From: a virus
Length of the DNA stretch: 44,187 nt
Virus record (IMG/VR): IMGVR_UViG_3300006922_000048
Coordinates: 1 to 44,187 of that record
Direction: 5' to 3' (one strand)
The notes under the pieces are model-generated. The model saw only the letters and a program-made list of their open reading frames with translations, did no database searches and was not told the origin of the DNA. How positions within the stretch are numbered: the first letter of the stretch is position 1; each line of letters starts with the position of its first letter. Below are positions 18,971 through 44,187 of the stretch, piece by piece. The position numbers and the translations under genes were made by a program.

Positions 18971-18972
18971 TA

Positions 18973-22709: not shown

Positions 22710-22721
22710 ATATTATATTGG

Positions 22722-22730
22722 CATAAATAC
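22722..22730 (+). promoter_or_regulatory. T4-type late promoter-like box (CATAAATAC)
   Basis: CATAAATAC lies 20 nt before the ATG at 22751, in the 41-nt gap after the second fibre gene. A second weaker copy (CATAAATAT) overlaps the upstream stop codon at 22705-22713. The core is identical to the boxes before 865 and 18356. Confidence 0.55.
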
Positions 22731-22750
22731 GTTATACATAGGGGTCAACA

Positions 22751-24304: not shown

Positions 24305-24308
24305 ATAG
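24301..24308 (+). promoter_or_regulatory. Possible late promoter box (CTAAATAG)
   Basis: CTAAATAG overlaps the stop of the third fibre gene and lies 21 nt before the next ATG. It is one base off the ATAAATA core of the other boxes; a CTAAATA variant is reported for T4-like cyanophages as I recall. Weak evidence by itself, but the position repeats the pattern of the other structural genes. Confidence 0.35.
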
Positions 24309-24329
24309 TACGTATAACGAGGAAAAGCA

Positions 24330-29615: not shown

Positions 29616-30498
29616 AGAATTTTTACACGGATTACAAGAATATAGTGAATTTAAGACAGAAGGTTCGGTTGCACGAAATGTAAAATCTTTCTTAGATATT
29701 TTATATGCAGAAGATCAAAAGTCTGCTTTTGTTAATCATTTCTTGCCAAAAGATCTTGCAAACATTTATGGATCTGATAATTTTGAACAAGACCTTATTG
29801 TATATCTTTTAAATAATTATGAAGGCAACGATACTCGTTATTTTAGATTTATTAAGGACTTTATCAAAAAAGATAAAGATATGAACATACTCTCAGATGC
29901 ATTAAGTAGAAGTCAAATCAAGAGTAAGATATGGTTAGTAAATGAGCTTGAAAAAATATCTAATCATTATGGCAATGTTGTACTATTAGCTGGCTGGTAC
30001 GGACAGTTAGTTGAGTTGTTTGGAGATAGTGTAGACAAAATTACATTTAAAAAATTTAGAAACGTTGAAATTGATATAGATGCATGTAATGAAAGTGACT
30101 ATAATTTTAATTTACGTCGAATGGATGATTACAAAGTAAAGTCTATACACGGCGATATTAATAATCTTAATCTGCACGGAAGCGGGTATCAGTGGGACGT
30201 AGAAAATTTTAAAACTGAAGAAAAATATAATGAGCAATTTTACCCAGACCTAATTATAAACACAAGTGCTGAACATATGACAACTGAATGGTTTAATCAA
30301 ATTAGATTTAACCCTTGGAAAGATCATAAACCTATTGTTGCTATACAAAGTAATAATTATTTTGACTTAGAAGAACACGTAAATTGCGTACATAGTATTA
30401 ATCATATGAAAAAAATATTTCCTATGAGTAAAATATTATACGAAGGTGAATTACAACTTAAAGGTTATAAGAGAGTTATGTTGATTGGTGAAGCATAA
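29599..30498 (+). CDS. Class I SAM-dependent methyltransferase-like protein
   Basis: 299 residues. The first 110 are helical and charged. Residues 125-135 read GNVVLLAGWYG, a glycine-rich strand-loop at the position of methyltransferase motif I, followed by KKFRNVEIDIDACNES with Asp159/Asp161 at the end of the next strand, as expected for the ribose-binding acidic residue. A later INTSAEHM (about 219-226) matches the motif IV region, and HKPIVAIQSNNYFDLEEH begins the distal strands. The glycine loop is shorter than the usual GxGxG, so the call is moderate. It could methylate a sugar, lipid or protein; context among glycosyltransferase-like and SGNH proteins favours a glycan or peptide substrate. 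AGAGGAGAG (29585-29593) precedes the ATG, which overlaps the previous gene by 17 nt. Confidence 0.55.
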   Translation: MSITNKEFLHGLQEYSEFKTEGSVARNVKSFLDILYAEDQKSAFVNHFLPKDLANIYGSDNFEQDLIVYLLNNYEGNDTRYFRFIKDFIKKDKDMNILSDALSRSQIKSKIWLVNELEKISNHYGNVVLLAGWYGQLVELFGDSVDKITFKKFRNVEIDIDACNESDYNFNLRRMDDYKVKSIHGDINNLNLHGSGYQWDVENFKTEEKYNEQFYPDLIINTSAEHMTTEWFNQIRFNPWKDHKPIVAIQSNNYFDLEEHVNCVHSINHMKKIFPMSKILYEGELQLKGYKRVMLIGEA

Positions 30499-31172
30499 TG
30501 AAACGAATACTATGTATCGGCGACAGTCATACTGCTGGACATAATAGACATACCAAAGTATTTGGTCCTAACGATATTGTAACTCCTAAGAATTGGCCAG
30601 CCTATTTACAAAAAACATTTCGTGATTCAGAAGTTTGGAATTTAGCATTATCGGGTGCAAACAACTTTTTCTCTGGTATAATGCTTGATAGTTTTTTAGA
30701 AACTTATACTCCTGATTTAGTAATTTATCAGATATCTGATCATAGAAGATTTATAAAAATAAAAAGTACAGCTAAATTAAATTTATTAGAAAGTGCATCG
30801 TGTGTTGCTCCTAATCATTATATATTAAACAGACAATCTTTCCCCTTTGGACTGATAGTTAGTCCAAATAGCCTTGCATCTGCATCACGTAAAGAGATAA
30901 GGCAAGTGTATACAGCATTATCAGATGACGACATTGTATATTTAAATAACATTGCAGTAGAAAGGAACCTTCTAAAATTACAGAATATTCCACATTACGC
31001 ATTCTATTGGCGTAAAGAAGATGCTGTTATGACGGGCTACGACAGTATAGATGATATATTAGGATCACAATTTCATAGTTTTGTTGAGGATAACGGATGT
31101 CACTTAAATACTACAGGACATGGACTTATTTACAATAACATTATTCATACAAAGGTAGTAAACTTACTATGA
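30498..31172 (+). CDS. SGNH/GDSL-hydrolase-like protein 1
   Basis: 224 residues starting MKRILCIGDSHTAGHN. The GDSH at 8-11 is block I of the SGNH/GDSL superfamily with Ser10 as nucleophile. NLALSGANN (about 50-58) supplies the Gly/Asn oxyanion region (block II/III), and DNGCHLNTTGHG near the C-terminus supplies the catalytic Asp/His region. SGNH enzymes act as esterases, or as O-acetyl-ester hydrolases and transferases on glycans. No signal peptide is seen, so a cytoplasmic action on a glycan or peptide precursor fits better than secretion. The stop of the previous gene and the start of this one share one base. It is one of four SGNH-like genes in this run. Confidence 0.72.
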   Translation: MKRILCIGDSHTAGHNRHTKVFGPNDIVTPKNWPAYLQKTFRDSEVWNLALSGANNFFSGIMLDSFLETYTPDLVIYQISDHRRFIKIKSTAKLNLLESASCVAPNHYILNRQSFPFGLIVSPNSLASASRKEIRQVYTALSDDDIVYLNNIAVERNLLKLQNIPHYAFYWRKEDAVMTGYDSIDDILGSQFHSFVEDNGCHLNTTGHGLIYNNIIHTKVVNLL

Positions 31173-31396
31173 TAGATTTAAAAGATCTCCCTGTTAGGGA
31201 ATTACAAAAAGAAAGTGCAAGAGCCCTAAGCACAATACAGGCTACTAATAATAATATTTGGCAGTTTAATAAAAAAGCTCATCACAATAGTCATAATTGG
31301 TATTGTGCTGTAATAGACTGGTATATTGATCAATATGGAGATTTGCCCAGTAAAGCAGGCCCTGGTAAAGATGTAAAATTGGTGTTAGATGTATGA
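31169..31396 (+). CDS. 75-residue protein of unknown function
   Basis: A short protein, MIDLKDLPVRELQKESARA onwards, with an amphipathic N-terminal half, a central HHNSHNW patch (about residues 38-44), one Cys, three Trp and a GPGK segment near the C-terminus. I do not recognise it. It is tightly packed, with ATGA overlaps at both ends between two SGNH-like genes, which supports that it is real and translated. Its size would allow it to be a small subunit, a carrier-like protein or a peptide substrate, but there is no double-Gly leader, no Cys-rich core and no phosphopantetheine Ser motif to support any of these. Confidence 0.55.
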   Translation: MIDLKDLPVRELQKESARALSTIQATNNNIWQFNKKAHHNSHNWYCAVIDWYIDQYGDLPSKAGPGKDVKLVLDV

Positions 31397-32025
31397 GAAA
31401 AAATATATTCTGTTTTGGATGCAGCTTTACTAACGGTAACCATTTTGAACAAAAAGACTGGAGAGCTTCATATCCGTATCAGCTATCTCTACTCATGCCG
31501 GACGTAGATGTTTATAATCTTGGGGTATCTGGTGGAAATAATATACTGAATGATATGATAATAAAAAAAGCACTTGAGGAATATTCCGTAGATTTTTCTA
31601 TTGTACAGTTTACATTTCCAAATAGATTTTATATTTCGTCATCTGATAGTTCTGAAAAAATAGGCATTAGGCACGGGGTTAAGCAGCTAAGTGATAATTA
31701 TTACTTGTTATCCATGGACTACGTAGCAGAATATTTTAAAGTTTTTACGCCGAGCAACTTCAAAGGAGGTGTTCAAAAGATTAGACAACTGTATAAATTA
31801 CTACCAAAAAGACAAATAGAACATATAAATGAAGCAGCTTATTTGTCAACATTATATAGATTAAAAGACTCACATCATTATACTTGGTCTTGGAGCAAAG
31901 GCACGTTAGGCACTAATGTAGTACCTGATAGACTAAAATTAGAACAATTTGATGACGGTACTGGACATTTGACTCAATTAGGTAATCAAGTACTTGCAGT
32001 ATATTTAAAAGGTGCAATAGTATAA
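31393..32025 (+). CDS. SGNH-hydrolase-like protein 2
   Basis: 210 residues, MRKNIFCFGCSFTNGNHF. Block I is FGCSFTNG with Ser11 as probable nucleophile; the usual Asp before Ser is replaced by Cys. VYNLGVSGGNNILND (about 40-54) is the Gly/Asn block. The C-terminal DDGTGHLTQLGNQVLAVYL holds the Asp/His pair of block V. The middle third is variable, aromatic and charged, and could form a lid for the acceptor. It is more distant from SGNH-like proteins 3 and 4 (which start MIYVGGDSY) than those are from each other. The gene begins with an ATGA overlap and ends directly against the ATG of the first radical SAM gene, so it is likely translated together with it. Confidence 0.68.
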   Translation: MRKNIFCFGCSFTNGNHFEQKDWRASYPYQLSLLMPDVDVYNLGVSGGNNILNDMIIKKALEEYSVDFSIVQFTFPNRFYISSSDSSEKIGIRHGVKQLSDNYYLLSMDYVAEYFKVFTPSNFKGGVQKIRQLYKLLPKRQIEHINEAAYLSTLYRLKDSHHYTWSWSKGTLGTNVVPDRLKLEQFDDGTGHLTQLGNQVLAVYLKGAIV

Positions 32026-33108
32026 ATGTATAGATACGAAGACATCAAAGAAGTACACTTAGAAGTTACGCAAAAGTGTCAAGCCGCTTGTCCTATGTGT
32101 GACAGAAATATGAATGGCGGAGACGACAATCCGCATATTACTAATGCAGAGCTTAGTTTAGAAGATACAAAGCGTATGTTCAGCCCAGAGTTTATTGCAC
32201 AACTAAAGGTTATGTATATGTGCGGCAACCTGGGCGACCCTATTGTAGCACGAGATACGTTAGAAATATTCAAGTACTTCCGTGAACACAATGATAAAAT
32301 GTGGTTAAGCATGAATACTAATGCTGGAGCCAAGAGTACAGAATGGTGGACAGAACTTGCAGGAGTTATTGGTCGCAAAGGAGCAGTAATTTTTAGTGTA
32401 GACGGTTTAAAGGATACAAATCATCTATATCGACAGAACGTTGTTTGGGATAATGTTGAACGTAACATGCGAGCATTTATTAATGCTGGAGGCAGAGCCC
32501 GTTGGGACTTCTTAATTTTTGCACACAATGAACATCAAGTAGATGAAGCAGAAGCACTTGCTAATCAATGGGGATGTGAAAAGTTTATTAAGAAAAAATC
32601 GGGTAGATTTATTACAAGCGATATTAAACCTAAAAAATCTCATCAAGCAGTAAATCGCAAAGGTGCAGAAACACAAAAATTAGCACAGCCTAAAGATGAA
32701 AAGAATAAAAACATAGCATTACTAAAACAAAAAGAAATTGAAAAGTCTTATGGTAGTATGAAAGAGTATTTAGATAAGTGCAGTATTACTTGTAAGGTTG
32801 CAAAACAAGGAAGTATTTTTGTAACAGCAGAAGGACTATTAATGCCGTGTTGTTGGACAGCTGGCCGTATGTACAAGTGGTGGCATGCAAATCCTCGTGT
32901 AGAGCAAGTATGGGATCATATAGATAATGCTGGCGGAAAACAAGGCATAAGTATTATAGACAATGACATTAAACACGTGGTTAATGGAAAATTAATAGAT
33001 AGTATCACTGCAAGTTGGCAAAAAAATAGTATTGCTGACGGAAAACTTGGCGTTTGCGCTCAAAAATGCGGTAGTGAATTTGACCCGTATAAGGAGCAAT
33101 TTGTATGA
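32026..33108 (+). CDS. Radical SAM enzyme with C-terminal SPASM-like domain (type A)
   Basis: 360 residues. CxxxCxxC at Cys18, Cys22 and Cys25 (VTQKCQAACPMC) ligates the radical SAM 4Fe-4S cluster. The strand-2 motif usually written GGEP is here CGNLGDP. NTNAGAKS and IFSVDGLKDTNHLYRQN follow as the usual barrel strands. After a Lys-rich linker (about 200-250) comes a SPASM-like auxiliary cluster region with Cys252/256, Cys275/276 (MPCCW) and Cys344/348 (CAQKC). This architecture is known in enzymes that modify peptides or other large substrates by radical chemistry. Its closest relatives here are the pair at 33814/34442 and the gene at 42896, which share YRxxVxxD-type and FAHNEHQ-type stretches. 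It is followed at a 4-nt overlap by SGNH-like protein 3, forming a cassette repeated downstream. Substrate unknown. Confidence 0.85.
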   Translation: MYRYEDIKEVHLEVTQKCQAACPMCDRNMNGGDDNPHITNAELSLEDTKRMFSPEFIAQLKVMYMCGNLGDPIVARDTLEIFKYFREHNDKMWLSMNTNAGAKSTEWWTELAGVIGRKGAVIFSVDGLKDTNHLYRQNVVWDNVERNMRAFINAGGRARWDFLIFAHNEHQVDEAEALANQWGCEKFIKKKSGRFITSDIKPKKSHQAVNRKGAETQKLAQPKDEKNKNIALLKQKEIEKSYGSMKEYLDKCSITCKVAKQGSIFVTAEGLLMPCCWTAGRMYKWWHANPRVEQVWDHIDNAGGKQGISIIDNDIKHVVNGKLIDSITASWQKNSIADGKLGVCAQKCGSEFDPYKEQFV

Positions 33109-33821
33109 TATATGTAGGCGGCGACAGCTATGCATTTGGATCAGAATTATTAGATATATCAAATCGTTTTGGTGATATTGTATCAGATGCTATGGGAACA
33201 ACAAATCAAAACGATGCATTAGGCGGCGCAAGTAATCAAAGAATTTACCGTAAATTTTTTGAAGCGTTTGATCCTAATAAATTTTCACATGTAATTTTAG
33301 GATGGACTGGCCTAAACAGATTTGAACATTATTCTGTCTTTGATCAAGATTATGACGGTTATAGAAGAATAACCGCACATCGATTACTTCCTTCTAACAA
33401 ACATGAAGATTACATAGATGAAAAACTTAGAAAAAGAATTGCAAAAACGCAACGAGATGTAAAAGTATCTAAAGAAAATAAAGTGTTATTGCAGTATATG
33501 GCTAATGTACGGACTGACAGAGTTATACATGCTGAAATTTTAAATATGATACTGCAAGTACAAAAGATGTGTAAATATACTGACACAAAATTATGCATGT
33601 TTTTTGGAGTACAGAATAATATCATAAAAGTCGATGAATTAATGACAGATCATTTAATGTACAACAGTGTAGACTGGAATGATACATGGCTTCATCGACC
33701 AGATTATTCTTTACAGGAATGTATGAATGATTTAAAATTACCAATAGGCCCAGGTAAACACTTTTTAGAAGAAGGTCATCAAGTTGCTGCTGACAAAATA
33801 TTGGAGCACTTTCGTGTCTGA
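33105..33821 (+). CDS. SGNH-hydrolase-like protein 3
   Basis: 238 residues, MIYVGGDSYAFGSELL. GGDSY gives Ser8 as nucleophile, DALGGASNQRIYRKF (about 37-51) is the Gly/Asn block, and GPGKHFLEEGHQVAADKI near the C-terminus provides the His region; an Asp is not obvious immediately before it. VILGWTGLNRFEHY is a conserved strand after block II. It is plainly homologous to the SGNH-like gene at 34836 (same GGDSY start, GGASNxRIxRKF, and xHxLEExH end). It overlaps the radical SAM gene on each side (4 and 8 nt), indicating co-translation. Possible role: ester cleavage or acyl transfer on the same substrate that the radical SAM partner modifies. Confidence 0.68.
   Translation: MIYVGGDSYAFGSELLDISNRFGDIVSDAMGTTNQNDALGGASNQRIYRKFFEAFDPNKFSHVILGWTGLNRFEHYSVFDQDYDGYRRITAHRLLPSNKHEDYIDEKLRKRIAKTQRDVKVSKENKVLLQYMANVRTDRVIHAEILNMILQVQKMCKYTDTKLCMFFGVQNNIIKVDELMTDHLMYNSVDWNDTWLHRPDYSLQECMNDLKLPIGPGKHFLEEGHQVAADKILEHFRV
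33803..33806 (+). promoter_or_regulatory. Ribosome-binding site fixing a GTG start
   Basis: GGAG lies 7 nt before GTG at 33814. Upstream in-frame TTG at 33784 has no comparable site, so GTG is the better start; it gives the GTG/TGA overlap of 8 nt seen elsewhere in the run. Confidence 0.6.
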
Positions 33822-34449
33822 TAAATGTTTTCAACTTTCAATCTCAACATATTGTCAAGCTAAATGTCGTAGTTGCTTACGTACTAATAGCGAAACAGGT
33901 GAGCCGGAAGATTGGCTTACGCCTACACATATGAGCGTAGAAGCAGTACAAAATTTAGTATCTGGCGATTATTTTAAAAAGAACAAAATGGGATATTTAC
34001 TTCTTTGCGGAGAATTAGGTGATCCAATGATGCATCCTAATATAGATAAAATTTTAGATATTACTCTTGCTGTTGTTCCTCGAGTAGAACTTTCGACAAA
34101 CGGTGGTCTGCGTCAACCAGAATGGTATGCAAAGACAGCGCAAAAATATGGAAGTCGTATTCATATTAAATGGGCAATAGACGGCACTGACCATGAGACA
34201 AATTGGAAATATAGAGAAGGTGTTGACTATTATCGAGCAATGGATAATATGAAAGCATGGATTGAAAACGGTGGTAACGGTGATTGGCATTATTTAATTT
34301 TTGAGTGGAACTGGAAACAGGTAAAAAAAGCTAAACAAATAGCTAAAGATATAGGGATTGAAATACTATTTAAAATAAACAACAGGCCGTTTGGATTAAT
34401 TAATCCAATTCACAAACGTAAAGTAATGGAGGAATTGGCTAATGGCTAA
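33814..34449 (+). CDS. Radical SAM core domain, split from its SPASM domain (type A)
   Basis: With the GTG start, 211 residues. CxxxCxxC at Cys14, Cys18 and Cys21 (STYCQAKCRSC). The glycine motif is CGELGDP, followed by ELSTNGGLRQPEWY and IKWAIDGTDHETNWKYREGV, matching the proteins at 32026 and 42896. Unlike those, this protein stops after the barrel, in the segment where they have a charged linker (ending KVMEELANG); the SPASM-like part is the next gene, in another frame and overlapping by 8 nt. It most likely works as a two-protein complex with that product. It could also be a recently broken gene, but the downstream piece has its own good start, so I favour a functional split. Confidence 0.78.
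   Translation: MSDKCFQLSISTYCQAKCRSCLRTNSETGEPEDWLTPTHMSVEAVQNLVSGDYFKKNKMGYLLLCGELGDPMMHPNIDKILDITLAVVPRVELSTNGGLRQPEWYAKTAQKYGSRIHIKWAIDGTDHETNWKYREGVDYYRAMDNMKAWIENGGNGDWHYLIFEWNWKQVKKAKQIAKDIGIEILFKINNRPFGLINPIHKRKVMEELANG
34428..34433 (+). promoter_or_regulatory. Strong ribosome-binding site inside the radical SAM core gene
   Basis: GGAGGA ends 8 nt before ATG at 34442. It lies within the end of the core gene and provides independent initiation of the separate SPASM-like gene, which argues against a sequencing frameshift as the only explanation of the split. Confidence 0.6.
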
Positions 34450-34834
34450 ACAGCAAAAAATTATGTGTATGTTTCATGATGGCACTCGAAGTGAATACGA
34501 TATAACTGTTGACGGTAGAGTGTGGCCGTGTTGTAAATTTGTAAATGTAATAACAAAGATCGAAGCCGGATTGCAAAAAAAAGGTGCTCTCGACGGAGAC
34601 GAGTATTTTTTTAAATTACAAAAAGATGATCCTAATTGGAATAGTTTAGAGCACCATTCATTAGAAGAAATATTAGATCATGACTATTTTTCTACATATG
34701 TAAACAATGAAGGATGGGAAAGTGGAAACACCAGCGTATTGTGTAAAAAACGATGTACAGCAAATATGCACCAAGACGGAACTTATACCTATGTAGCAGA
34801 TACAAGTAACAAAATACATAAGAGGATAAAATAA
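34442..34834 (+). CDS. Stand-alone SPASM-like iron-sulfur domain protein
   Basis: 130 residues beginning MAKQQKIMCMFHDG. Cysteines are placed as in the C-terminal domains of the type A radical SAM genes: Cys9, the Cys30-Cys31 pair in GRVWPCCKF, and Cys101/Cys105 in LCKKRC. The gene at 42896 has the same GRVWQCCYF and RCSKFC, and 32026 has MPCCW and CAQKC. Also shared with 42896 is the NxxxLxxILxHDFF/YF-type stretch (SLEEILDHDYFSTY). There is no CxxxCxxC barrel here. It would hold the auxiliary cluster and the substrate-facing surface for the core encoded just upstream. The end is 1 nt before the next ATG. Confidence 0.75.
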   Translation: MAKQQKIMCMFHDGTRSEYDITVDGRVWPCCKFVNVITKIEAGLQKKGALDGDEYFFKLQKDDPNWNSLEHHSLEEILDHDYFSTYVNNEGWESGNTSVLCKKRCTANMHQDGTYTYVADTSNKIHKRIK

Positions 34835-34835
34835 A

Positions 34836-35585
34836 ATGATATACGTAGGCGGCGATAGTTATACATACGGAATTGAATTAAATAATCCTCTGAAAAGTCG
34901 ATATTCTTTTTTGATGCAACAAAAATTAAAAATGTCTGTAGTAAATGATGCTTGGGGCGGAGCAAGTAATGACAGGATAGCCAGAAAATTTTTAGAGTTT
35001 ATGAACGGTCATAAAGTAAAACCTGACTTGGTGTTTATTATGTGGGCTCCTATTACAAGATCAGAGCAGTATGCTCCTGAGGAAAATATGTGGGAAGAAC
35101 AAGACGGATTTAGACAAGTAAGATCGCCTGATATTTTTTTACCTGCCAAAGCTAAGCCGACAAAAAAGCAACTACACTGGCGTCGATCTCTTTCTCAGTT
35201 AAGTGCTACGCAAAAATGGTGGCTTAATATATTTGACCAAAAAGGAGCAATTGATAGTTATATTAGAAATATAATGATAGTTCAAACTGTTTGTCGTGCA
35301 GGAAATATACCGTTTATAATGACTAATTGTAATTCTTCAATGACACTCAAACAAGTTGATAATTTTATAAGTCGTAATAAAACAGTAGAAAACTACACTC
35401 AACAACGAGTAAATCTCATTGATAGTAGTAACTGGTTATTTGATAAAACATGGTCTTTTGCTGAATGGGCAAAAGATAACGAATATCCAATAGGCCCACA
35501 GTATCATCCGTTAGAGGAAGCACATAGAAACTTTGCTGATATATTAACAGACAAAGTTAAGGAGAGAGTAAATGCCTCCGATTAA
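34836..35585 (+). CDS. SGNH-hydrolase-like protein 4
   Basis: 249 residues, MIYVGGDSYTYGIELNNP. Ser8 in GGDSY, the NDAWGGASNDRIARKFLEF block (about 37-55) and GPQYHPLEEAHRNFADIL near the end are the SGNH blocks. VFIMWAPITRSEQY parallels VILGWTGLNRFEHY in the copy at 33105. The two are therefore paralogues, each directly after a type A radical SAM unit. Additional aromatic and basic residues in the middle (about 105-135) may bind the acceptor. GAGGATAAA precedes the start. The C-terminus overlaps the next radical SAM gene by 14 nt. Confidence 0.68.
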   Translation: MIYVGGDSYTYGIELNNPLKSRYSFLMQQKLKMSVVNDAWGGASNDRIARKFLEFMNGHKVKPDLVFIMWAPITRSEQYAPEENMWEEQDGFRQVRSPDIFLPAKAKPTKKQLHWRRSLSQLSATQKWWLNIFDQKGAIDSYIRNIMIVQTVCRAGNIPFIMTNCNSSMTLKQVDNFISRNKTVENYTQQRVNLIDSSNWLFDKTWSFAEWAKDNEYPIGPQYHPLEEAHRNFADILTDKVKERVNASD

Positions 35586-36786
35586 ATGCTTCTTTGCAAA
35601 AAATGCAATTAATTACAAGCCCAATGATAGAATAACTGCGTGTCCCAGAGGTCATGGATCTTTGGCTAAAATTAGTGACTCTGTAAAACCAAGTGATTTT
35701 TTAAATAACGAAGGATTTAGAAATCTTAGGAAAACTTTACAAGATGGTGAATGGGATACATCGCATTGTGATACCTGTATGGAAAGAGAACAACGAAATA
35801 TCACAAGTATGCGTCAAAACATCAACTCTGAATTTAATCCTAACACTAAAATTAATGCAAACGGCAAAGTGCGTTATAGAGAATTAAAATTTATAGAGCT
35901 TAGATTCAGTAATACTTGTAACTTATGCTGTTTGCATTGTGGTCCTGATTACAGCAGTCAATGGGCATCACTTATAAAAAATAATCCCTTACAAAAAGAT
36001 GACGTTGCTCATAATATTAGAGGATGGGTTAATCCGAGTAAAAATACAAATTGGACAAGTAAGCAAGTAAGAGACTTTGTAGAAGACTTAAATAAAAACT
36101 TTCCAAATGTTGAAAGATTTGATATTGCCGGCGGCGAGCCATTGTATCAAAAACAATTTTGGCTATTTTTAGATTTAATAAAAGACCATCCTAATATAAA
36201 ACGTATGACTATTAGTATTACTTCTAACTTTAATGTTGACATTAATTATAAAGATCTTGCTAAAAAACTTAATAAATTTAAACGTGCAAATGTGCGAATA
36301 AGTTTAGATGCTGGAAAAAACTTATACGATTATTTTAGAGGCGGTAGCTGGGAAAAAGTAGAAGACAATATAAAACAGTTTAACAAAACCAGAAGGAATA
36401 CACAATTAGAGGTTACAAATACAATCGGAGTTCATCAAATTTTAGATCTTGAGGATGTAATTGTAAGTATGTTAGAACTTCCAGTTGACAAATTACATCA
36501 TAGTATTATACAATATCCTGACTATTTAAGTCCGCACGTATTTGATTCTAACAATCAAAGAGTTATTGATGAAATTGATAGGGCTAAAGCAGCAATTGAT
36601 TGTTATAAAAGTGATATAAAATACGTTAGCGCTCATAGAATGATTAAATCACTTGAAAAGGAGTATAGTAACTCAAAGTATAAATCTACTTTACTAAAAA
36701 GTTTCCAATACTATACTAATAAAATGGATAAAATTAAAAATACAAATTTTGAATCAGTGTTTGGATATAAAATAGATGAACTCTAA
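35572..36786 (+). CDS. Radical SAM enzyme with N-terminal twitch-like domain (type B1)
   Basis: 404 residues. The N-terminal 90 hold Cys6, Cys24 (TACPRGH) and Cys66/Cys69 (HCDTCMERE), a twitch-like half-SPASM placed before the barrel rather than after it, as in the N-terminal-twitch radical SAM family. The barrel motif is Cys116, Cys120, Cys123 (CNLCCLHC), then GGEP at 187-190 and SLDAGKNLYDYFRGGSWEKV. The C-terminal about 130 residues are helical with no cysteine cluster. In place of the usual CC pair there is a single Cys24 followed by ProArg, so its auxiliary cluster ligation may differ from the paralogues. It is first of five consecutive genes of this type. Overlaps are 14 nt upstream and 11 nt downstream. 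Substrate unknown. Confidence 0.82.
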   Translation: MPPIKCFFAKNAINYKPNDRITACPRGHGSLAKISDSVKPSDFLNNEGFRNLRKTLQDGEWDTSHCDTCMEREQRNITSMRQNINSEFNPNTKINANGKVRYRELKFIELRFSNTCNLCCLHCGPDYSSQWASLIKNNPLQKDDVAHNIRGWVNPSKNTNWTSKQVRDFVEDLNKNFPNVERFDIAGGEPLYQKQFWLFLDLIKDHPNIKRMTISITSNFNVDINYKDLAKKLNKFKRANVRISLDAGKNLYDYFRGGSWEKVEDNIKQFNKTRRNTQLEVTNTIGVHQILDLEDVIVSMLELPVDKLHHSIIQYPDYLSPHVFDSNNQRVIDEIDRAKAAIDCYKSDIKYVSAHRMIKSLEKEYSNSKYKSTLLKSFQYYTNKMDKIKNTNFESVFGYKIDEL

Positions 36787-37870
36787 CTATTGTGTCCTTC
36801 CTTTTGTTCATAGTTGTACAAACGTAGGCGGCAGAAATAAGCCTTGCTGTAGATTTTCTGACCAAAGTTATAACGATCAAGTTAGTCCGTTAGATTATTT
36901 CAATGGAGATAAGATAAATTTACTTAGAAATAAAATGCTTAACGGAGAAATAATAAAAGGATGCGACAAGTGTCACGCAGAAGAGTCGTTAGGTAAACAA
37001 AGTTATAGGCAACGGTCAAACAATCAATATAAAGAATATATTGACAAACAACCTACTTTAAAATTTATCGAAATTGGACTAAGCAATGCCTGTAATTTTG
37101 GATGTGTAACTTGTGATGCAGCATATAGCACAACTTGGTGGCAGGATATTGATGATGTAAATGCTATAGGCGCTAATAAAGCAAAACCTGATCAAAAAGT
37201 TGTATACACAGATAGTAAGTTTAATGACTTTTCTAATATAGATAGAATAAAAATATTAGGCGGCGAACCATTTATGGAGCCGAGAAACTTAGAGTTTTTA
37301 AAAAAATGTAATTTAAAAAATATCGAATTAGAACTTGTTACAAATGGTAGCATTTTGCCAAACAATGAGTGGCAAGAAATATTGCAACAACTAAAATATG
37401 TAAACTTAGATATAAGTTTAGACGGCCATGGTGAAATTGCCGAGTATGTGCGTTATGGAACAAACTGGAAAAAATTAGAATCTAATATTAATTGGTGGAA
37501 ACAGTGGTGGAGTAATAATAACAATATCACTATAAAAAGTCATTTTGTAGTTCATGCTCTAAATGCATTTGATTTACATAATTATTTAGAATGGCAAAAA
37601 AAGTTTAAATGGAAAACTACGTTTGATATACTACAAATGCCAGAATATTTAAATATTAAAATTCTGCCAACAGAAATGAAGAAAGAAATTTTAGAAAAGG
37701 TAGATATTAAGAATGTTACAAACTATTTAACTAAGCATATGAACATTTTTGACAAGGACCAGTGTAGTCTGCTAACTAACTATGTTAGTGTTTTAAATAA
37801 AAAACGTAATCATGACTTACAACAAATTAACAAACTAATGGATAGACTTAATGAAGCAACCAACAGATAG
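36776..37870 (+). CDS. Radical SAM enzyme with N-terminal twitch-like domain (type B2)
   Basis: 364 residues. N-terminal twitch cysteines: Cys6 in NYCVLPFVHSC, the Cys24-Cys25 pair (NKPCCRFSD) and Cys63/Cys66 (GCDKCHAEE). The core motif is Cys106, Cys110, Cys113 (CNFGCVTC), then GGEP at 162-165 and DISLDGHGEIAEYVRYGTNW. The LPFxH start, PCC pair, CxxC and barrel order is shared with the genes at 37851, 39083, 40458 and 44123. The last about 80 residues form a helical cap with repeated Lys/Asn. Starts within the previous gene (11-nt overlap). A radical SAM iron-sulfur enzyme is well supported; reaction and substrate are not. Confidence 0.85.
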   Translation: MNSNYCVLPFVHSCTNVGGRNKPCCRFSDQSYNDQVSPLDYFNGDKINLLRNKMLNGEIIKGCDKCHAEESLGKQSYRQRSNNQYKEYIDKQPTLKFIEIGLSNACNFGCVTCDAAYSTTWWQDIDDVNAIGANKAKPDQKVVYTDSKFNDFSNIDRIKILGGEPFMEPRNLEFLKKCNLKNIELELVTNGSILPNNEWQEILQQLKYVNLDISLDGHGEIAEYVRYGTNWKKLESNINWWKQWWSNNNNITIKSHFVVHALNAFDLHNYLEWQKKFKWKTTFDILQMPEYLNIKILPTEMKKEILEKVDIKNVTNYLTKHMNIFDKDQCSLLTNYVSVLNKKRNHDLQQINKLMDRLNEATNR

Positions 37871-39095
37871 TAAAACTTTTTGTATTTTACCTTGGATACA
37901 TGTGAATGGTAGTGTCGGCGGAGGTTATCGACCATGCTGTAATAGTGAAAGTTATTTTGATTTTAAAGACGACAACAACAGTATCAAACAAGCGTTTGAA
38001 AGCAACAGTATGGACGAAATCCGCCAGTTTATGCAGCAGGAAAAAGAACATCCTGCATGTGAAGTTTGCTATTCAAGAGAGCGCAATAATGGATTAAGTT
38101 TTCGACATACATACACAGTTGATAAGTTTAAAGAATTTGTAGATCCGAATGCAGACGAAAAAATAAAATATTTAGACTTACGTTTTGATAACACTTGTAA
38201 TCTTGCTTGTAGAATGTGTGATCCAAGTAGTAGTAATCAGTTATATAGTAGTATCGAATGGTATAGGCAAGAGGATAAACCACTACCAGAACACTGGAAA
38301 GGGTTTACTAATTATAAACAAAAAGATCAAACACAGATTAGTGCAAATCGTAAAGACTATGTAATAGAATTATTACCGGGTATAGAAGTTTTAAAAGTAA
38401 CCGGCGGCGAACCTTTTATTAGCAAGGATTTTTTAGAAGTATTAGATCATGCAATTGAAAATGATTATGCAAAAAATATTAGATTGCTAATAACTACAAA
38501 TGGCACTAAGTTTGTAAAGGCAGTTTTACAACGTCTTAAACATTTTAAGGGCGTTGACATGAATGTAAGTGTTGACGGAACCAGTCATGTGTATGACTAT
38601 GTTAGATATCCTTTTACATGGAATAAATGGAATGATAGATTTTTAGAGTTTTTAAATTTTGCTGATGAAAACGAAATGTATAAAAACAAATACTTTCGAA
38701 TTCGAACAAGTACAGTTGTTACAATGTACAATTGGTTGAATTGTCCAGAGCTATATACACATTTGAAATCTTATACTGAACAATTTCCGTGGTTAATTAA
38801 TAAAAATTATATACCACGTATAGATTTTAATTTAAATCTGCGCCCAAAAGATAGTGAAATGTCGGCCAAGTGGTTACCTAATAACATTTTAGATAAGGGT
38901 TTAGAGTTATGGCAGCATACTGATTGTAGACAATATAAAGAATTTGAAAAGTATGTAGTTAATGCAAAAAAACTAAATTCAGACGATAAAAATCTTTATC
39001 GAGAAAAAATTAAATACACTACTACGACATTAGACAAACAGCGGAAACAAACTTTTGCTGTATTAGATAGCGAGATTGTTAAATGGCTAAAATAG
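37851..39095 (+). CDS. Radical SAM enzyme with N-terminal twitch-like domain (type B3)
   Basis: 414 residues. Twitch cysteines Cys11 (TFCILPWIHVNGS), Cys29-Cys30 (YRPCCNSES) and Cys70/Cys73 (ACEVCYSRE). Core cluster Cys116, Cys120, Cys123 (CNLACRMC). TGGEP at 184-188, LITTNGTKFVKAVL, and NVSVDGTSHVYDYVRYPFTW follow. This is the most canonical member of the group: the CILPWIH opening and PCC pair are the usual signature of the N-terminal-twitch radical SAM family. The C-terminal part (about 290-414) is long and aromatic, with LRPKDSEMSAKWLP. It overlaps the previous gene by 20 nt and the next by 13 nt. The product of the partial gene at 44123 starts almost the same way (TFCLLPWVH). Confidence 0.87.
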   Translation: MKQPTDSKTFCILPWIHVNGSVGGGYRPCCNSESYFDFKDDNNSIKQAFESNSMDEIRQFMQQEKEHPACEVCYSRERNNGLSFRHTYTVDKFKEFVDPNADEKIKYLDLRFDNTCNLACRMCDPSSSNQLYSSIEWYRQEDKPLPEHWKGFTNYKQKDQTQISANRKDYVIELLPGIEVLKVTGGEPFISKDFLEVLDHAIENDYAKNIRLLITTNGTKFVKAVLQRLKHFKGVDMNVSVDGTSHVYDYVRYPFTWNKWNDRFLEFLNFADENEMYKNKYFRIRTSTVVTMYNWLNCPELYTHLKSYTEQFPWLINKNYIPRIDFNLNLRPKDSEMSAKWLPNNILDKGLELWQHTDCRQYKEFEKYVVNAKKLNSDDKNLYREKIKYTTTTLDKQRKQTFAVLDSEIVKWLK

Positions 39096-40486
39096 ATAAA
39101 AAAGAAGCAGAGCGTTTAGAAAGTTTAGTACCAAATAAAAAGTTTTGTCCTGCTCCCTTTATGCATACATATATAAATTCAAATAATAGAGGATATAAAC
39201 TTTGCTGTATGAGTCATATTGTTGGTCGTTGGGATACTGAACAAAGTCTTAAAGAACAACACGAAGAATTTTGGACTGGTGAAACTATGCAAAGTATTCG
39301 CCAAGATTTTCTTGATGGCAAAATGCCAGAATCGTGTGAGTGGTGGTGCGGTCGTTGGGAAAAAGAAGGTATATATCATAAGAGTGATAGATTAGATTTT
39401 ATAAAACGCTATGAATTAGAATTAAAAGCAGGATTTACAGAAATAAATTGGGACATAACTCATGGTACCCTTGAATTCCAGAAGCCAGTCGATATTGATT
39501 TACGACCAAGTAAAATGTGTAATTTAAAATGTCGTAGCTGTAATAGTCTTTGGTCCGATAAGATTGAACAAGAAGTACTTGCTAATCCAGAAATACAAGG
39601 ATGGAGCCATTGGGACATGGTAACACAAAGCCCTAATGCTATGCGTAAAGCAAAACAGATTGATTACTCAGATCCTAAGTTTGATGTTGTTAGTAATTTA
39701 GACTTTTCAAATGTATTTCGTTTAAAAATGAGCGGAGGAGAAACGTTAGTTGATCCAAGAGTTTATAATATTATGAAAAAACTTGTTGATAGTGGCGAAG
39801 CAAAGAATGTACGTCTTCATCAAATTACAAACTGTACCAGCCTTCCAAGCAGAATATACGATCTACTGGCACAGTTTAAAGAAGTTAGTTTCAATATTAG
39901 TGTAGATGGCGTAAAAGAAACAGATGAATTTTTACGTGACGGAACCAGATGGGATCGAAAACAAAAAGTATTTGATAAAATCTTTACATTACCTAATTTA
40001 AAATGGGCTGGCATAATGCATGTCTTCCAGCCTGTTAGCGCATTTCAAGTAAAGCGTAATGTAGAATGGTTTTTAGAAGGATACAGAAAATATACAAAAC
40101 AACATAACGGTGTTACTTTTAATCCTATTGTTGATCCTTGGTATCTAAGTGTAAGTTGGTTAGATGAAGATCATAAAGATTACATAAGACAGCAAGTAAA
40201 AGAATGTATAACAGAATTTAATATGTGTAAACAAGAACAACAATGGTTTGATCTGTTACATAGTGAATTAGATAAGACACAAACTGACGAGCGTCGAAAA
40301 AGATATGCAAATGATTATGTGCGAGCAGAGTTAGCATTGGATAAAATAAGGAATACAAGTTCTCTTACTATAGAGCCTATGCTACAACGATATTTTGATA
40401 GATACGATCCAAACAATGTTACACACGGTGACAAAACAGGAAGACCAGGAGCCCACTTTGACGGAAAACCAAAACCAACAGTCTAA
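39083..40486 (+). CDS. Radical SAM enzyme with N-terminal twitch-like domain (type B4)
   Basis: 467 residues. Twitch cysteines Cys22 (KFCPAPFMHTY), Cys41-Cys42 (YKLCCMSH) and Cys85/Cys89 (SCEWWCGRW); the last pair is CxxxC where the others have CxxC. Core cluster Cys146, Cys150, Cys153 (CNLKCRSC). The glycine motif is SGGETLVDP, with Thr in the Pro position of GGEP (217-221). NISVDGVKETDEFLRDGTRW is the usual later strand. The C-terminus is long, with a helical region and a low-complexity HGDKTGRPGAHFDGKP tail encoded where the next gene begins in another frame. The 13-nt upstream overlap is typical of the run. Substrate unknown. Confidence 0.84.
   Translation: MAKIDKKEAERLESLVPNKKFCPAPFMHTYINSNNRGYKLCCMSHIVGRWDTEQSLKEQHEEFWTGETMQSIRQDFLDGKMPESCEWWCGRWEKEGIYHKSDRLDFIKRYELELKAGFTEINWDITHGTLEFQKPVDIDLRPSKMCNLKCRSCNSLWSDKIEQEVLANPEIQGWSHWDMVTQSPNAMRKAKQIDYSDPKFDVVSNLDFSNVFRLKMSGGETLVDPRVYNIMKKLVDSGEAKNVRLHQITNCTSLPSRIYDLLAQFKEVSFNISVDGVKETDEFLRDGTRWDRKQKVFDKIFTLPNLKWAGIMHVFQPVSAFQVKRNVEWFLEGYRKYTKQHNGVTFNPIVDPWYLSVSWLDEDHKDYIRQQVKECITEFNMCKQEQQWFDLLHSELDKTQTDERRKRYANDYVRAELALDKIRNTSSLTIEPMLQRYFDRYDPNNVTHGDKTGRPGAHFDGKPKPTV
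40447..40451 (+). promoter_or_regulatory. Ribosome-binding site supporting a TTG start
   Basis: AGGAG lies 6 nt before TTG at 40458. The resulting protein begins 13 residues before its first twitch Cys, similar to the sister proteins. Alternative in-frame starts at 40416 (ATG) and 40395 (TTG) lack a comparable site. Confidence 0.5.
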
Positions 40487-41720
40487 AAAGGTATTTTGTA
40501 CAGCACCTTTTTTTAATTTATATTATAAGGGTAATAAGGATTATAATAAAATAATGCCTTGTTGTGAAGGTCGTTTGGGATCTTTAGGTAACTTTAGCCA
40601 TTATGAAGAATATAGTAAAAGTAAATGGTTACGAAATATAAGAAAGAAAATGCTTAACAACGAACCTGCAGAAATATGTACTCGATGTGTATCTGTTGAA
40701 GAAGCTGGCGGGTTCAATGCGAGAGAACATTATAGAAATTTACTTGAAAAAATAGAATTTAGGACAAAGGAAAAAGTAGAGTTTAACTTTAAAAACGGGA
40801 ACCAACACGGCCATCCGATGGCATTAGATTACAGAGGTAGTAATCTTTGTAATTTAAAATGCAGAATGTGTCATCAAGGAAGTAGTTCGGAAATTGCTAA
40901 AGAAATTAATAAAAATCAAGATCTGTATCGTCCAATGGGATACGGTAACGGAGTAAGTCATTTATATATTAATAACAAACTGCCTAACGAGTTTATAGAC
41001 GAGCTTAAATTAGACAACGTGTATAGATTTAAAATCTTAGGCGGAGAACCGTTAATGCAAGAAGATGTGTACATAGGATTAGAAAAAATGGCACAGTTGC
41101 CACACAGGAAGGAAGTTGATATAAGTTTTACAACTAATGCAACTAACTTTCCAAAAAGATTCTATGACTTAATTGGAAAATTTAGACGTATATTGATGCG
41201 AGTAAGTCTTGACGGTGTTGATGATGTATTTGAATATTGTAGATCAAACGGCAACTGGGACAAAATTATGAAAAATATAACTTCGTTGTCTGAGCGGGGT
41301 TATACACAAAATGAATTAGCTCTCGGTTTTAGTTTTGTTATACAATTTTATAATGTTTTTAGGATTTATGATATAATGGAATGGTGTGCTAAATGGGAAG
41401 ATGAACATCCTGTAGAAACTTCGATATGGTCAATGCATACATTTTTTAGTCCAATTGAACAAAATCATTTATCAACAGCAATGTGTACTACAGAAGATAG
41501 AGAATTTCTTAGACAAGAGCTTGACAGATTCCTTAAAGATTATGGACGTAGGTCCTGGTTTGATCGTGTAGAAAACATTATATTCAATTTTGATGAAAAT
41601 AGAAATTTTGATAAAGAAAAAGCCAAAGAAACACTAATTGTATACAGTAAAAATTTAGATAAAATTAGAAAAACTAATTTACCAGATTTACATGAAAGAT
41701 ATAGCAAATATTATGAATGA
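40458..41720 (+). CDS. Radical SAM enzyme with N-terminal twitch-like domain (type B5)
   Basis: From TTG at 40458, 420 residues; ATG at 40416 would add 14. Twitch cysteines: Cys14 (VFCTAPFFNLY), Cys35-Cys36 (IMPCCEGR) and Cys74/Cys77 (ICTRCVSVEE). Core cluster Cys131, Cys135, Cys138 (CNLKCRMC). GGEP at 195-198, TTNATNFPKRFYDL, and RVSLDGVDDVFEYCRSNGNW follow. It is closest to the gene at 39083 in its APF-type opening and in the C-terminal region before the linker. The 29-nt overlap with the previous gene is the longest in the run. The C-terminal half includes a long helical region (MEWCAKWEDEHPVETSIW). Radical SAM function is clear; the substrate is unknown. Confidence 0.84.
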   Translation: MTENQNQQSKKVFCTAPFFNLYYKGNKDYNKIMPCCEGRLGSLGNFSHYEEYSKSKWLRNIRKKMLNNEPAEICTRCVSVEEAGGFNAREHYRNLLEKIEFRTKEKVEFNFKNGNQHGHPMALDYRGSNLCNLKCRMCHQGSSSEIAKEINKNQDLYRPMGYGNGVSHLYINNKLPNEFIDELKLDNVYRFKILGGEPLMQEDVYIGLEKMAQLPHRKEVDISFTTNATNFPKRFYDLIGKFRRILMRVSLDGVDDVFEYCRSNGNWDKIMKNITSLSERGYTQNELALGFSFVIQFYNVFRIYDIMEWCAKWEDEHPVETSIWSMHTFFSPIEQNHLSTAMCTTEDREFLRQELDRFLKDYGRRSWFDRVENIIFNFDENRNFDKEKAKETLIVYSKNLDKIRKTNLPDLHERYSKYYE

Positions 41721-42903
41721 AACATACAATAGTATTAATCCCAGTAAAACAAATGAATTTATCATAACATGGGACACCGGCAAACGATGTAATTTTGACT
41801 GCGGCTATTGCGGCGATGACAGACATGACTTAGTGAGCAAGTTTCCAGACTTCGACGAGCTTGTTAAAGGTGTTGACTTTATTAAGAAATATTTAACAGT
41901 AATGATGCCGCATAGGAATAATCAAGTTGCTACACTTAGTTTAACAGGTGGAGAACCTACAGTTAATCCTAATTTTTTACGATTAGCAACATATCTAAAC
42001 GATCAATTTAAAGACTTTGAATACGAAGTTAAAACTATCTTAACTACAAACGGCAGTTTCCCTCAAAAAAATATTCAACATTTGGTAGATAATTTTAGAG
42101 GAATCACTCTTAGTTATCATTGTGATAGTAAAGAAAAACTTAAAGAAAAAGTAAGAGAAAATATCCTTATTTTACATAAGAGTATGAAAAGTTTTAAAGT
42201 AAATCTTATGATGCATCCGTATGATAATTATTGGCAAGAATGTTTAGATTTAATCGATGTAATGGACGAGCATAAAGTTAAGTATGTTCCGAGAGTAATT
42301 AATGGTTTAAAATATAGTCCAGAGCAAAGTGAATTTCTTACAAATTATTGGCAAAGGAAAAATAAAACTAAAACTGAAATAAAAGTAGAAAAAGTTGAAT
42401 CAAAGCCGCAAGAAGTTAAAAAAGAAAATGTCATACATCGAAAAATGAAAAAAGATGTTGAAAAAACATTTAACGAATTACGAAAAGATGAAACTAAAAC
42501 TAATGTTATTCACGGCAGGCATTGTTGTAGTAAACACGAATTATCCTGCGGGTCAATGTGTGGATCTACACAAAATCTTACATATGTTACCGATACAAGA
42601 TTTCCAGAATGGTACTGCGGTGTAAATTGGTTCTTTTTACATCTTGAAAGTCAAACAGATCAAATATTTCATCATCAAACCTGTCAAGCACAATACGGCA
42701 AGGGTAGGGGAGCAGTTGGTAAAATAAGTGAGTGGACAACTTTTACTGACAAAGTTGAAACTATGATAAACACAGGTAAAATGGAAACTATTCAATGTCC
42801 AAATAAAAAGTGTGGTTGCGGATTGTGTGCTACAAAGAGTATAGATAAAAATATGTTTAACAACTTAATGTCTAATCATATTAAGGGCGTAACATATGTC
42901 TGA
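41713..42903 (+). CDS. Radical SAM enzyme with ten-cysteine C-terminal domain (type C)
   Basis: From ATG at 41713 (an 8-nt ATGAATGA overlap), 396 residues; ATG at 41692 would add 7. There is no N-terminal twitch: the core cluster comes early, Cys26, Cys30 and Cys33 (CNFDCGYC), with TGGEPTVNP at 78-86 and ILTTNGSFPQ. A Lys/Glu-rich linker (about 216-266) is followed by a cysteine-rich region with ten cysteines, from Cys271-Cys272 (RHCCSKHELSCGSMC) to Cys367, Cys369 and Cys372 (KCGCGLCATKS). This is more cysteine than a standard SPASM and could hold two auxiliary 4Fe-4S clusters or one plus a metal site. It differs from both type A and type B, so it may perform a distinct step. Confidence 0.83.
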   Translation: MNETYNSINPSKTNEFIITWDTGKRCNFDCGYCGDDRHDLVSKFPDFDELVKGVDFIKKYLTVMMPHRNNQVATLSLTGGEPTVNPNFLRLATYLNDQFKDFEYEVKTILTTNGSFPQKNIQHLVDNFRGITLSYHCDSKEKLKEKVRENILILHKSMKSFKVNLMMHPYDNYWQECLDLIDVMDEHKVKYVPRVINGLKYSPEQSEFLTNYWQRKNKTKTEIKVEKVESKPQEVKKENVIHRKMKKDVEKTFNELRKDETKTNVIHGRHCCSKHELSCGSMCGSTQNLTYVTDTRFPEWYCGVNWFFLHLESQTDQIFHHQTCQAQYGKGRGAVGKISEWTTFTDKVETMINTGKMETIQCPNKKCGCGLCATKSIDKNMFNNLMSNHIKGVTYV

Positions 42904-44122
42904 TAATAGTCTTGGTATTCATATCGAAATATCTTCTAACTGTAACAGCAGATGTTTAGACTGTGGACGATTTGTCAAAGGTACGGACACTATTAATCCG
43001 TATGTTGATATTGGAAGTAAAGGCAATATTAGTATTTCGGCTATAGAAAATATTTTTGATAAATCTATATCAGAAACTGCACGATACGTAAATTTTACTG
43101 GAACTTATGGTGACTTTACCTTACATCCTAATGCATTAGATATAATGAAATGTATTTCTAATAAAATACAGCCGCACATAAAAAATAGAAATAAAAATGA
43201 GTTAACAGATAAAATAAGATTACTTGCTGAAACAAATGGCGGAGCAAGAGACGACGAATGGTGGCACAAGTTTGGTGACTACATCTTAAAATATTTTGAT
43301 AAAGGTAGTTTAGTTATATTTGCATTAGACGGCACCGACAACGAAACGCACCAAATGTATCGTCGAGGTGTTGACTTTGATACAGTGTTACGACATGCAA
43401 AAATTTTAATTGATAAAGGTATACGAACACGTTGGAGCTTTATAAGTTTTGCGCACAATGAACATCAACTCGACGAAGCAAAGCAAATGGCTAACGAAAT
43501 AGGATTTACACAATTTCGAATTAGAAGATCAAGGCTACGCCATAATCCAAAAACAATTACAAATGTAAAACAAAAAAAGAAAAACATAAGTGATAAACAA
43601 ATATCAAAGTCTCAGATGTATACAGACTTAGTAAAAGAAAAAGAACATAGTGTTGTAAATGATGTTCCTAAGCCGTGGTATAAAAAGAAGATTGACGATT
43701 ATGTAAATGAAACTTCTATTGAGTGCGAATGGAAAAAGAAACAACAAATTAGTATAGACTATACAGGCAGAGTTTGGCAATGTTGTTACTTTAGTAATTT
43801 TTATCATTATAACTTAAATCTGCCAGACTACGAACATGTGTCAAATAATGCATATGATTATAATTATAATAACCAAAACTACGAACGGTTAAGTGTCTAC
43901 GAGGATAGATACAATGACAAATGGAATAATATAAATCATAGAACACTTAGTAATATTTTAGGACACGATTTCTTCACAACAGATTTGCCTGATAGTTTTA
44001 ATAACACTACAGAGCATAAACATAATCCAAGAATTGTACGATGTAGCAAATTTTGTGGAGAAAAGTCAAGAACTTTAGATAAGAAGCTAACATCTATTAA
44101 TAAAGAAAAAGAGGAACAATAA
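42896..44122 (+). CDS. Radical SAM enzyme with C-terminal SPASM-like domain (type A)
   Basis: 408 residues. Core cluster Cys16, Cys20, Cys23 (CNSRCLDC). The glycine motif is GTYGDFTLHP, again not GGEP. AETNGGARDDEWW and IFALDGTDNETHQMYRRGV match the proteins at 32026 and 33814. ISFAHNEHQLDEAKQMANE is nearly the same as LIFAHNEHQVDEAEALANQ in 32026. After a Lys-rich linker come Cys277, Cys296-Cys297 (GRVWQCCYFSN) and Cys383/Cys387 (RCSKFC), so both halves of the split pair at 33814/34442 are present here in one chain. It overlaps the previous gene by 8 nt. Its stop is followed directly by the ATG of the partial gene. Confidence 0.84.
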   Translation: MSDNSLGIHIEISSNCNSRCLDCGRFVKGTDTINPYVDIGSKGNISISAIENIFDKSISETARYVNFTGTYGDFTLHPNALDIMKCISNKIQPHIKNRNKNELTDKIRLLAETNGGARDDEWWHKFGDYILKYFDKGSLVIFALDGTDNETHQMYRRGVDFDTVLRHAKILIDKGIRTRWSFISFAHNEHQLDEAKQMANEIGFTQFRIRRSRLRHNPKTITNVKQKKKNISDKQISKSQMYTDLVKEKEHSVVNDVPKPWYKKKIDDYVNETSIECEWKKKQQISIDYTGRVWQCCYFSNFYHYNLNLPDYEHVSNNAYDYNYNNQNYERLSVYEDRYNDKWNNINHRTLSNILGHDFFTTDLPDSFNNTTEHKHNPRIVRCSKFCGEKSRTLDKKLTSINKEKEEQ

Positions 44123-44187
44123 ATGACTTACAAATCGCCGTCAGACACATTTTGCTTACTGCCCTGGGTACATTTAAGTACAAGACC
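44123..44187 (+). CDS. Radical SAM enzyme with N-terminal twitch-like domain, 5' fragment
   Basis: An ATG directly after the stop of the previous gene (no gap), behind GAGGAA (44111-44116), opens a frame that runs off the right edge. The 21 complete codons begin MTYKSPSDTFC and continue LLPWVHLSTR. This is the same opening as the gene at 37851 (TFCILPWIH), the signature of an N-terminal twitch domain, with Cys11 as its first ligand. It indicates that the radical SAM run continues beyond the window. The rest cannot be judged here. Confidence 0.65.
   Translation, partial: MTYKSPSDTFCLLPWVHLSTR

Follow-up and report, generated by a model that had tools for sequence, protein, structure and literature searches.

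The 44,187-base viral fragment IMGVR_UViG_3300006922_000048 of IMG/VR, called here the window, carries an island of radical S-adenosylmethionine (SAM) genes, and we regard it as an even call that this island serves the tailoring of surface glycans. Nine complete radical SAM genes lie at 32026-44122 and a tenth, B6, opens at 44123 with MTYKSPSDTFCLLPWVHLSTR... and is cut by the window edge. They belong to a single packed run of 21 same-strand genes (25438-44122), in which the gap between neighbours is 1 nt at most (Table 1). The island is real, widespread in its phage group, conserved and partly known already, and it is best filed with phage-borne surface-modification gene sets.

Exactly one CxxxCxxC motif was found in each of the nine open reading frames (ORFs), and in none of the others of the 30 window ORFs examined; among homologous ORFs of relatives, cut ORFs counted, it is present in 599 of 631. 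All nine match PF04055 at E<=7.5e-6, seven of them above the Pfam cut-off. The two below it are A1, whose orthologues in loci L036 and L028 lie above, and B4, which exceeds the cut-off (170 bits) of the N-terminal twitch (N-twitch) model NF033640 (N_Twi_rSAM). B1-B5 all pass that model with 230-258 bits, A1, A2 and C stay under 170 bits and A3 is unmatched. In A1, A2/A2s and A3 the barrel comes first and is followed by a SPASM-like, Cys-rich half; the SPASM model PF13186 (cut-off 21.5 bits) scores both A2s and A3 too low for its cut-off and gives no match for A1, the Cys pattern of which is kept across 43 sequences of relatives. The third type, C, has ten Cys beyond residue 270 and no match in isolate phages at E<=1e-3. 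An earlier note, made from the letters of this DNA, had counted nine intact motif genes and a truncated tenth, and both counts hold. Of the profile searches that it proposed, those for the barrel and the N-terminal twitch agreed with its assignments, but the SPASM one stayed below cut-off; its three architectures were likewise recognised, except that A2 consists of two ORFs rather than one.

The rightward extension that the note asked for could be followed in a related viral record of 84.6 kb (G002), whose radical SAM proteins are 96-100% identical to those of the window. It has 15 PF04055 matches across about 24 kb, and the array thus extends past 44187. B6 is complete there (468 residues, with CxxxCxxC). 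Past the nine genes the array carries on with two B-type proteins, another pair of radical SAMs and, beyond a nitroreductase gene, an opposite-strand B-type protein and a 502-residue radical SAM. Between and after the later radical SAMs are FMN reductases, a redoxin, oxygenases of the TauD and Asp/Arg-hydroxylase types, a methyltransferase and a desaturase. The B6 family occurs in 61 of 93 overlapping sequence sets, and a same-strand B6 orthologue stands downstream in 41 of the 48 A1 loci having 7 kb of downstream sequence.

Relatives of A1 are encoded by 276 viral stretches, the best 80 of which formed the A1-baited set. In 38 of its contigs, hand-picked and mostly long (at least 11 others over 23 kb were left out) and scanned whole, we found 3-20 PF04055 matches each (median 11), with zero in none. 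Since A1 is itself a radical SAM, the search was repeated with the baseplate protein gp6 as bait; 80 loci were kept, and the scan took in every one whose contig reached 29 kb, 21 in number. At least one match was present in 14 of these contigs, at least five in seven and none in seven, many of them being fragments that may stop short of the island. Four of the 21 were shared with the A1 set; the other 17 gave at least one match in ten cases and at least five in four. A third bait, the small protein S, added 12 long records with 9-22 matches each. In a 382-kb record with 14 matches, the 12 matches listed all fall within 241.6-271.2 kb. On the basis of these scans the island is common and localised in the phage group, its universality not being established. 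The order from tail genes to array, which the note had wished to see checked, is conserved in three contigs (L014, L015 and L016) with differing IMG sample numbers, so a chimeric assembly, the objection that the note raised against itself, is unlikely and was rejected. B3 as sole bait returned two viral loci. We also observed that three contigs filed under bacterial metagenome-assembled genomes (MAGs), namely L129 (NZGL01000008.1), L130 and L131, look like phage with the island; L129 is the clear phage case, as its gene order equals that of L062.

A tree was built from 82 N-twitch-type proteins, viral and bacterial; its deep branches are poorly supported and long branches were flagged. B1-B5 each pair with their G002 counterpart, next with L031, and never first with another window copy, and four copies of a bacterial locus (G381) form one clade. 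Because orthologues group before paralogues and same-type window copies are only 24-30% identical pairwise, recent amplification was rejected, as the note had argued. The ratio of nonsynonymous to synonymous substitution rates (dN/dS) against G002 is 0-0.21 in every radical SAM gene, B2 and B3 showing few changes (dS 0.01-0.02), and decay of these genes was therefore rejected as well; the SGNH-like genes, with 0.29-0.98, seem to evolve faster. Distant comparisons (L031/L032) are near saturation, and a ratio above 1 for gene C, despite 65% identity, was taken as an alignment fault and not used. Judged by these alignments, the radical SAM copies of the window are old paralogues under purifying selection.

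The barrel and the SPASM-like half of A2 are encoded by separate ORFs that overlap by 8 nt. The split is preserved in L014, L015 and L016, and a barrel/SPASM-like split with an 8-nt overlap is seen in three separate families: that of the window, families 63/64 (L048 11083-12091) and that of Pelagibacter phage Mosig (Mosig_00084/85, L010 19968-20934), in which the barrel shares 27% identity with A2 across 184 columns. As the same split recurs with the same overlap in each relative examined, it is taken as real, and a sequencing error was rejected. The simplest reading is that A2 and A2s would make up a two-chain radical SAM/SPASM enzyme with coupled translation.

As for the company of the array, a glycosyltransferase (GT) lies in the same packed run as the radical SAMs: profile A6, built on family 5, is GT8-like and matches glycogenin-1 structures at 2e-7 over the first 106 of its 278 positions. 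A glycosyltransferase in a packed run, with an altered host surface polysaccharide, is typical of phage surface-glycan cassettes of the seroconversion type. The GT-A-like 'YLSYDE' protein is a recurrent neighbour in relatives, and family A8, which resembles it by eye, has no PDB match. A family-2 protein resembles an annotated methyltransferase of Mosig (24% over 55%), and with SGNH profile A10 the esterase matches, at about 1e-3, rank below one kinase chain taken as chance; the GT-A-like, methyltransferase-like and SGNH-like labels around A1 are mostly weak or given by eye. The radical SAMs of Mosig have a sugar-type aminotransferase (DegT), an epimerase and a carbamoyltransferase as neighbours, and in Vibrio phage K566 a GT8 gene is flanked by two radical SAM genes. 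Carbamoyltransferase PF16861 was found in 12 of 38 related viral records, in addition to Mosig. By tblastn, B3 matched 24 isolate records, 22 of them Vibrio phages, and A1 matched four (Mosig and Campylobacter phages); plasmids gave no match to B3 or to one bacterial copy at the limits applied.

N-twitch proteins are rare in the cellular genomes that were scanned. With limits of 1e-20 to 1e-30 and the best candidates per genome scored, they were present in 2 of 274 genomes of one class (one being a MAG with a phage contig), in 4 of 398 of a phylum sample (three over cut-off), in 1 of 78 of one order, namely G381, and in none of 14 control genomes over cut-off. The G381 locus runs from RmlC and RmlD through an ABC-2 exporter to a Wzt protein, with its Wzt_C domain, fused to an N-twitch radical SAM (G381:C19, L227 8579-11089); next come a further three N-twitch proteins and then TylF, a methyltransferase and WbsX. 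Wzt_C is the domain that binds the O-antigen. For this one fusion protein, a single instance in one genome, the domain arrangement is direct evidence of a link that would tie the radical SAM to the O-chain. The G414 copy lies near GT2 and epimerase genes, and G039:C12 encodes a cytidylyltransferase of the CMP-sugar type and two sulfotransferases, of which one is over cut-off, and shares, by eye, families 4, 5 and 6 with the phages. Bacterial O-antigen loci with Wzm/Wzt have their own exporter, the subunit of which is, in G381, fused to and then trailed by N-twitch radical SAMs; a Pfam scan of window island genes found no exporter, and the phage would need that of its host.

If the island does tailor surface glycans, the GT8-like and GT-A-like enzymes could add or lengthen sugars on a glycan of the cell surface, for which the O-chain or core of the host lipopolysaccharide is the likeliest candidate. 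The N-twitch and SPASM-like radical SAMs, which as members of their superfamily would cleave SAM to a 5'-deoxyadenosyl radical, would then activate C-H bonds of those sugars, leading to dehydration, epimerisation, deoxygenation or C-C joining, and each copy may serve a separate position or step. The decoration would be completed by methyltransferases and SGNH proteins, with carbamoyltransferases joining them in relatives, and the altered surface might block adsorption of superinfecting phages or help to release progeny. The earlier note had suggested a dedicated, stepwise pathway: dedication is consistent with the conserved gene order, but stepwise action is what we infer. Were the proposal true, phages would hold an unusually dense set of radical enzymes remodelling bacterial surfaces, with a sugar chemistry beyond what is expected of viruses, and the Wzt fusion makes the N-twitch family, the model of which specifies no function, testable, the predicted substrate being the exported O-chain.

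Several observations weigh against a glycan target. Cellular cases are scarce, the Wzt fusion was seen once, and inspection by eye revealed nothing glycan-related around G056 and G603, two of the loci fetched. G001 and G002, to which the window is most closely related, have no carbamoyltransferase, and in G009 and G033 this gene is far from the array. Sugar-nucleotide genes are scarce in the viral records (PF02348 in 2 and PF01370 in 4 of 38, over cut-off), and Pfam did not bear out the labels PagP and NDP-sugar-transferase given to genes of K566 and CP220. The glycan explanation also leaves the role of S unexplained. The AlphaFold2 model of a B6 orthologue (pLDDT 76) places DesII, the sactipeptide maturase 5why, BlsE and MoaA in a tie (Z 9.3-9.4), and peptide maturases score similarly (5why 9.4, anSME 8.9, SkfB 8.8); the single Foldseek match under E 0.001 is SkfB, a maturase of ribosomally synthesised and post-translationally modified peptides (RiPPs), and the closest solved sequence is 8vpo, titled TigE. 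Since both kinds of enzyme tie and Foldseek gives SkfB, the fold favours neither a sugar nor a peptide substrate.

S is a 75-residue protein with a compact three-helix AlphaFold2 model (pLDDT 89). It has no match in Pfam, PHROG or isolate phages, and a fold search gave none under E 1. Its presence was confirmed in three MAG contigs and 506 stretches of viral DNA, and its relatives span loci L014-L093 and L129-L211. S is the sole conserved short gene found beside A1 and occurs in 62 of 80 A1 loci, in 12 of which the two reading frames overlap by 8 nt. All 83 S-baited loci fetched have radical SAM genes (median six; at least six are on contigs already in the A1 set), and A1 is present in 43 of the 44 with 4 kb downstream. 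Against G002, S is identical at 75 of 75 residues at dS 0.13. S apparently represents an undescribed family tied to radical SAM islands; as 18 of the 80 A1 loci are without it, S as an obligate partner of A1 was dropped.

A conserved S beside the array, without known relatives, leaves room for a peptide or protein pathway, in which S would be a ribosomal scaffold, carrier or docking partner and A1 with the other radical SAMs would build a RiPP-like or a mycofactocin- or pyrroloquinoline quinone-like product. Besides the S counts and the maturases among the best fold and sequence neighbours, weak scores of the window A1 with mycofactocin and tungsten-cofactor maturases speak for it. However, S is missing from part of the A1 loci and is helical and conserved along its full length, with no variable or repeated core; the PqqD-type recognition domain (PF05402) was found in 0 of 41 records, and no same-strand gap is left for a further precursor gene. 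A PqqD-type domain is not present in all RiPP systems. On balance we consider a peptide pathway unlikely, and the note's choice between peptide and glycan is narrowed towards glycan but not closed. A more far-reaching reading, in which marine phages of the jumbo type possess a multi-step radical pathway specific to viruses, is doubtful, though a little less so; it would rest on the 9-22 radical SAMs of the longer S-bearing records, yield a new glycan class or a product carried by S as carrier or partner, and make phages, rather than bacteria, the main reservoir of N-twitch enzymes.

The same chemistry could be directed at the tail fibres or virion of the phage itself, as glycosylated or side-chain-modified adhesins, instead of the host surface. 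Tail genes (PHROG tail and virion matches) stand directly left of the island, in keeping with the tail-gene neighbourhood named in the note, and a G002 gene at 75816, past the island, is a tail fibre by eye; the bacterial array, however, is tied to an O-antigen exporter, and we regard a virion target as quite improbable. We give still less weight to nucleotide or small-molecule chemistry aiding replication, such as the making of chain terminators in the manner of viperin, of modified bases or of cofactors. B2 (8e-14), B3, B4, B5 and C match the viperin NCBIfam model and viperin folds score Z 8-9, PP-loop proteins recur in islands, and G002 carries a redoxin, a nitroreductase and an FMN reductase; yet none of the matches reaches the viperin cut-off, the PP-loop likeness to solved enzymes is mostly in the ATP-site stretch, and the location is amid tail and GT-like genes.

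The note called the phage T4-like, which stands at the superfamily level but only broadly, because gp6 and another structural protein, the 18356 gene, are nearest to jumbo phages, including the Munch/121Q/RaK2 group. The best isolate matches of gp6 (32-35%) are Salicola SCTP-2, Sinorhizobium Phosso, Munch and Agrobacterium Atu_ph07, and the 18356 gene, which falls in a PHROG family of unknown function, matches Phosso at 56% and Atu_ph07 at 55%; the 24330 gene has no PHROG match. A structural protein of a related locus is nearest to PA5oct-type phages. Cyanophages are within the gp6 matches (Synechococcus in 6 and Prochlorococcus in 4 of 74 records), none among the best listed. The host-recognition cluster of pelagimyophages is characterised by a place next to VrlC. 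The 4661-residue protein had no significant BLASTP match to VrlC of Mosig (E 1.9), which suggests a lineage other than that of Mosig; a cyanophage/VrlC lineage was accordingly dropped.

The note's remark that such a concentration had not been described was too strong. Timms 2010 (PMC2853527) reported 11 and 12 radical SAM genes in Campylobacter phages CP220/CPt10, five of them forming an exchangeable module, and proposed a boost to host metabolism; this phage group is distantly related to T4-like phages (PMC3322345). Nishimura 2017 (PMC5332604) listed 12 in the T4-like ocean genome TARA_ERS488813_N000010. Pelagimyophage host-recognition islands combine radical SAM cassettes and GT8 with tail fibres (PMC7029224), and radical SAM, RmlD and glycosyltransferases are jointly prevalent in Tasman Sea viral samples (PMC7150976). 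In the available parts of these five sources and of PMC10783043 and PMC11002830, the recurrent gene order, S, the split enzyme and the Wzt fusion are not mentioned, and literature searches that paired 'N-terminal twitch' with radical SAM, or looked for the phrase 'phage-encoded radical SAM', returned nothing. CP220 resembles the window in gene number (11 in our count) but its A1 identity is only about 23%, and its 40-kb stretch L009 gave no B-type row passing the tree filter. The TARA genome, compared by description only, is also from a marine tailed phage with a similar gene number, but its genes were treated as Fe-S proteins, and architecture, order and a glycan link do not appear in the available part of PMC5332604. 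Mosig (EXVC030M) shares the split pair but has two PF04055 matches, against nine in the window. NF033640 covers five window proteins, yet is a model name without a function, whereas here the copies are in tandem, with 14 B-type rows from record G013. Because isolates with radical SAM clusters exist (Mosig, K566, CP220), the question is accessible to experiment.

Table 1. Features of the window, with positions, strand and supporting evidence.
Feature	Position	Strand	Evidence
gp6-like baseplate wedge, lineage marker	865..4350	+	phrog_10646 6e-288
4661-residue protein after gp6, no type assigned	4350-18335		
Tail/structural genes directly left of island	18356..25382	+	PHROG tail/virion matches: 18973, 20988, 22751
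Putative glycosyltransferase, family 4	25784..26602	+	invariant D101/D103 (DxD) in alignment A7; function read by eye; no Pfam match
GT8-like glycosyltransferase, family 5	26599..27453	+	profile A6 match; no Pfam match for single sequence
GT-A-like protein, two related halves, 'YLSYDE' family	27999..29615	+	weak PF00535, 5e-4, under cut-off
Putative SAM methyltransferase, family 14 (resembles family 2 by eye)	29599..30498	+	no Pfam match
SGNH/GDSL hydrolase-like	30498..31172	+	PF13472 1.6e-5, under cut-off
S, conserved 75-residue protein, three-helix model	31169..31396	+	no Pfam/PHROG match
SGNH-like protein	31393..32025	+	low-identity alignment with other SGNH-like copies; no Pfam match
A1, radical SAM with SPASM-like C-terminal half, the copy of widest occurrence	32026..33108	+	PF04055
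SGNH-like protein	33105..33821	+	alignment A10; weak DUF6071
A2, radical SAM barrel, split; alternative start GTG 33814	33784..34449	+	PF04055 33.3 bits
A2s, SPASM-like half of A2 as an ORF of its own, overlapping by 8 nt	34442..34834	+	PF13186 17.2 bits, under cut-off
SGNH/GDSL-like protein	34836..35585	+	PF13472 5e-5, under cut-off
B1, N-twitch radical SAM	35572..36786	+	NF033640 230 bits
B2, N-twitch radical SAM	36776..37870	+	NF033640 256 bits
B3, N-twitch radical SAM	37851..39095	+	NF033640 258 bits
B4, N-twitch radical SAM	39083..40486	+	NF033640 234 bits
B5, N-twitch radical SAM; start TTG 40395 or ATG 40416	40395..41720	+	NF033640 246 bits
C, radical SAM, ten-Cys C-terminal part	41692..42903	+	PF04055 38.8 bits; Cys positions
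A3, radical SAM with C-terminal SPASM-like half	42896..44122	+	PF04055 40.8 bits; PF13186 16.6 bits, under cut-off
B6, start of tenth radical SAM gene	44123..44187	+	reading frame; complete orthologue G002 56752-58158

Two further kinds of protein were noticed in the islands of relatives. PP-loop proteins with an SGGxDS motif and a CxxCxxCxER end recur within islands (L036 14878-15702, L063 11730-12434 and others; alignment A9), and by sequence the family has no close solved relative. In L026 (6062-9238), a 1058-residue protein of family 19 lies just before S and A1; by eye it has two GT-A-like halves, short repeats and a fused methyltransferase-like domain.

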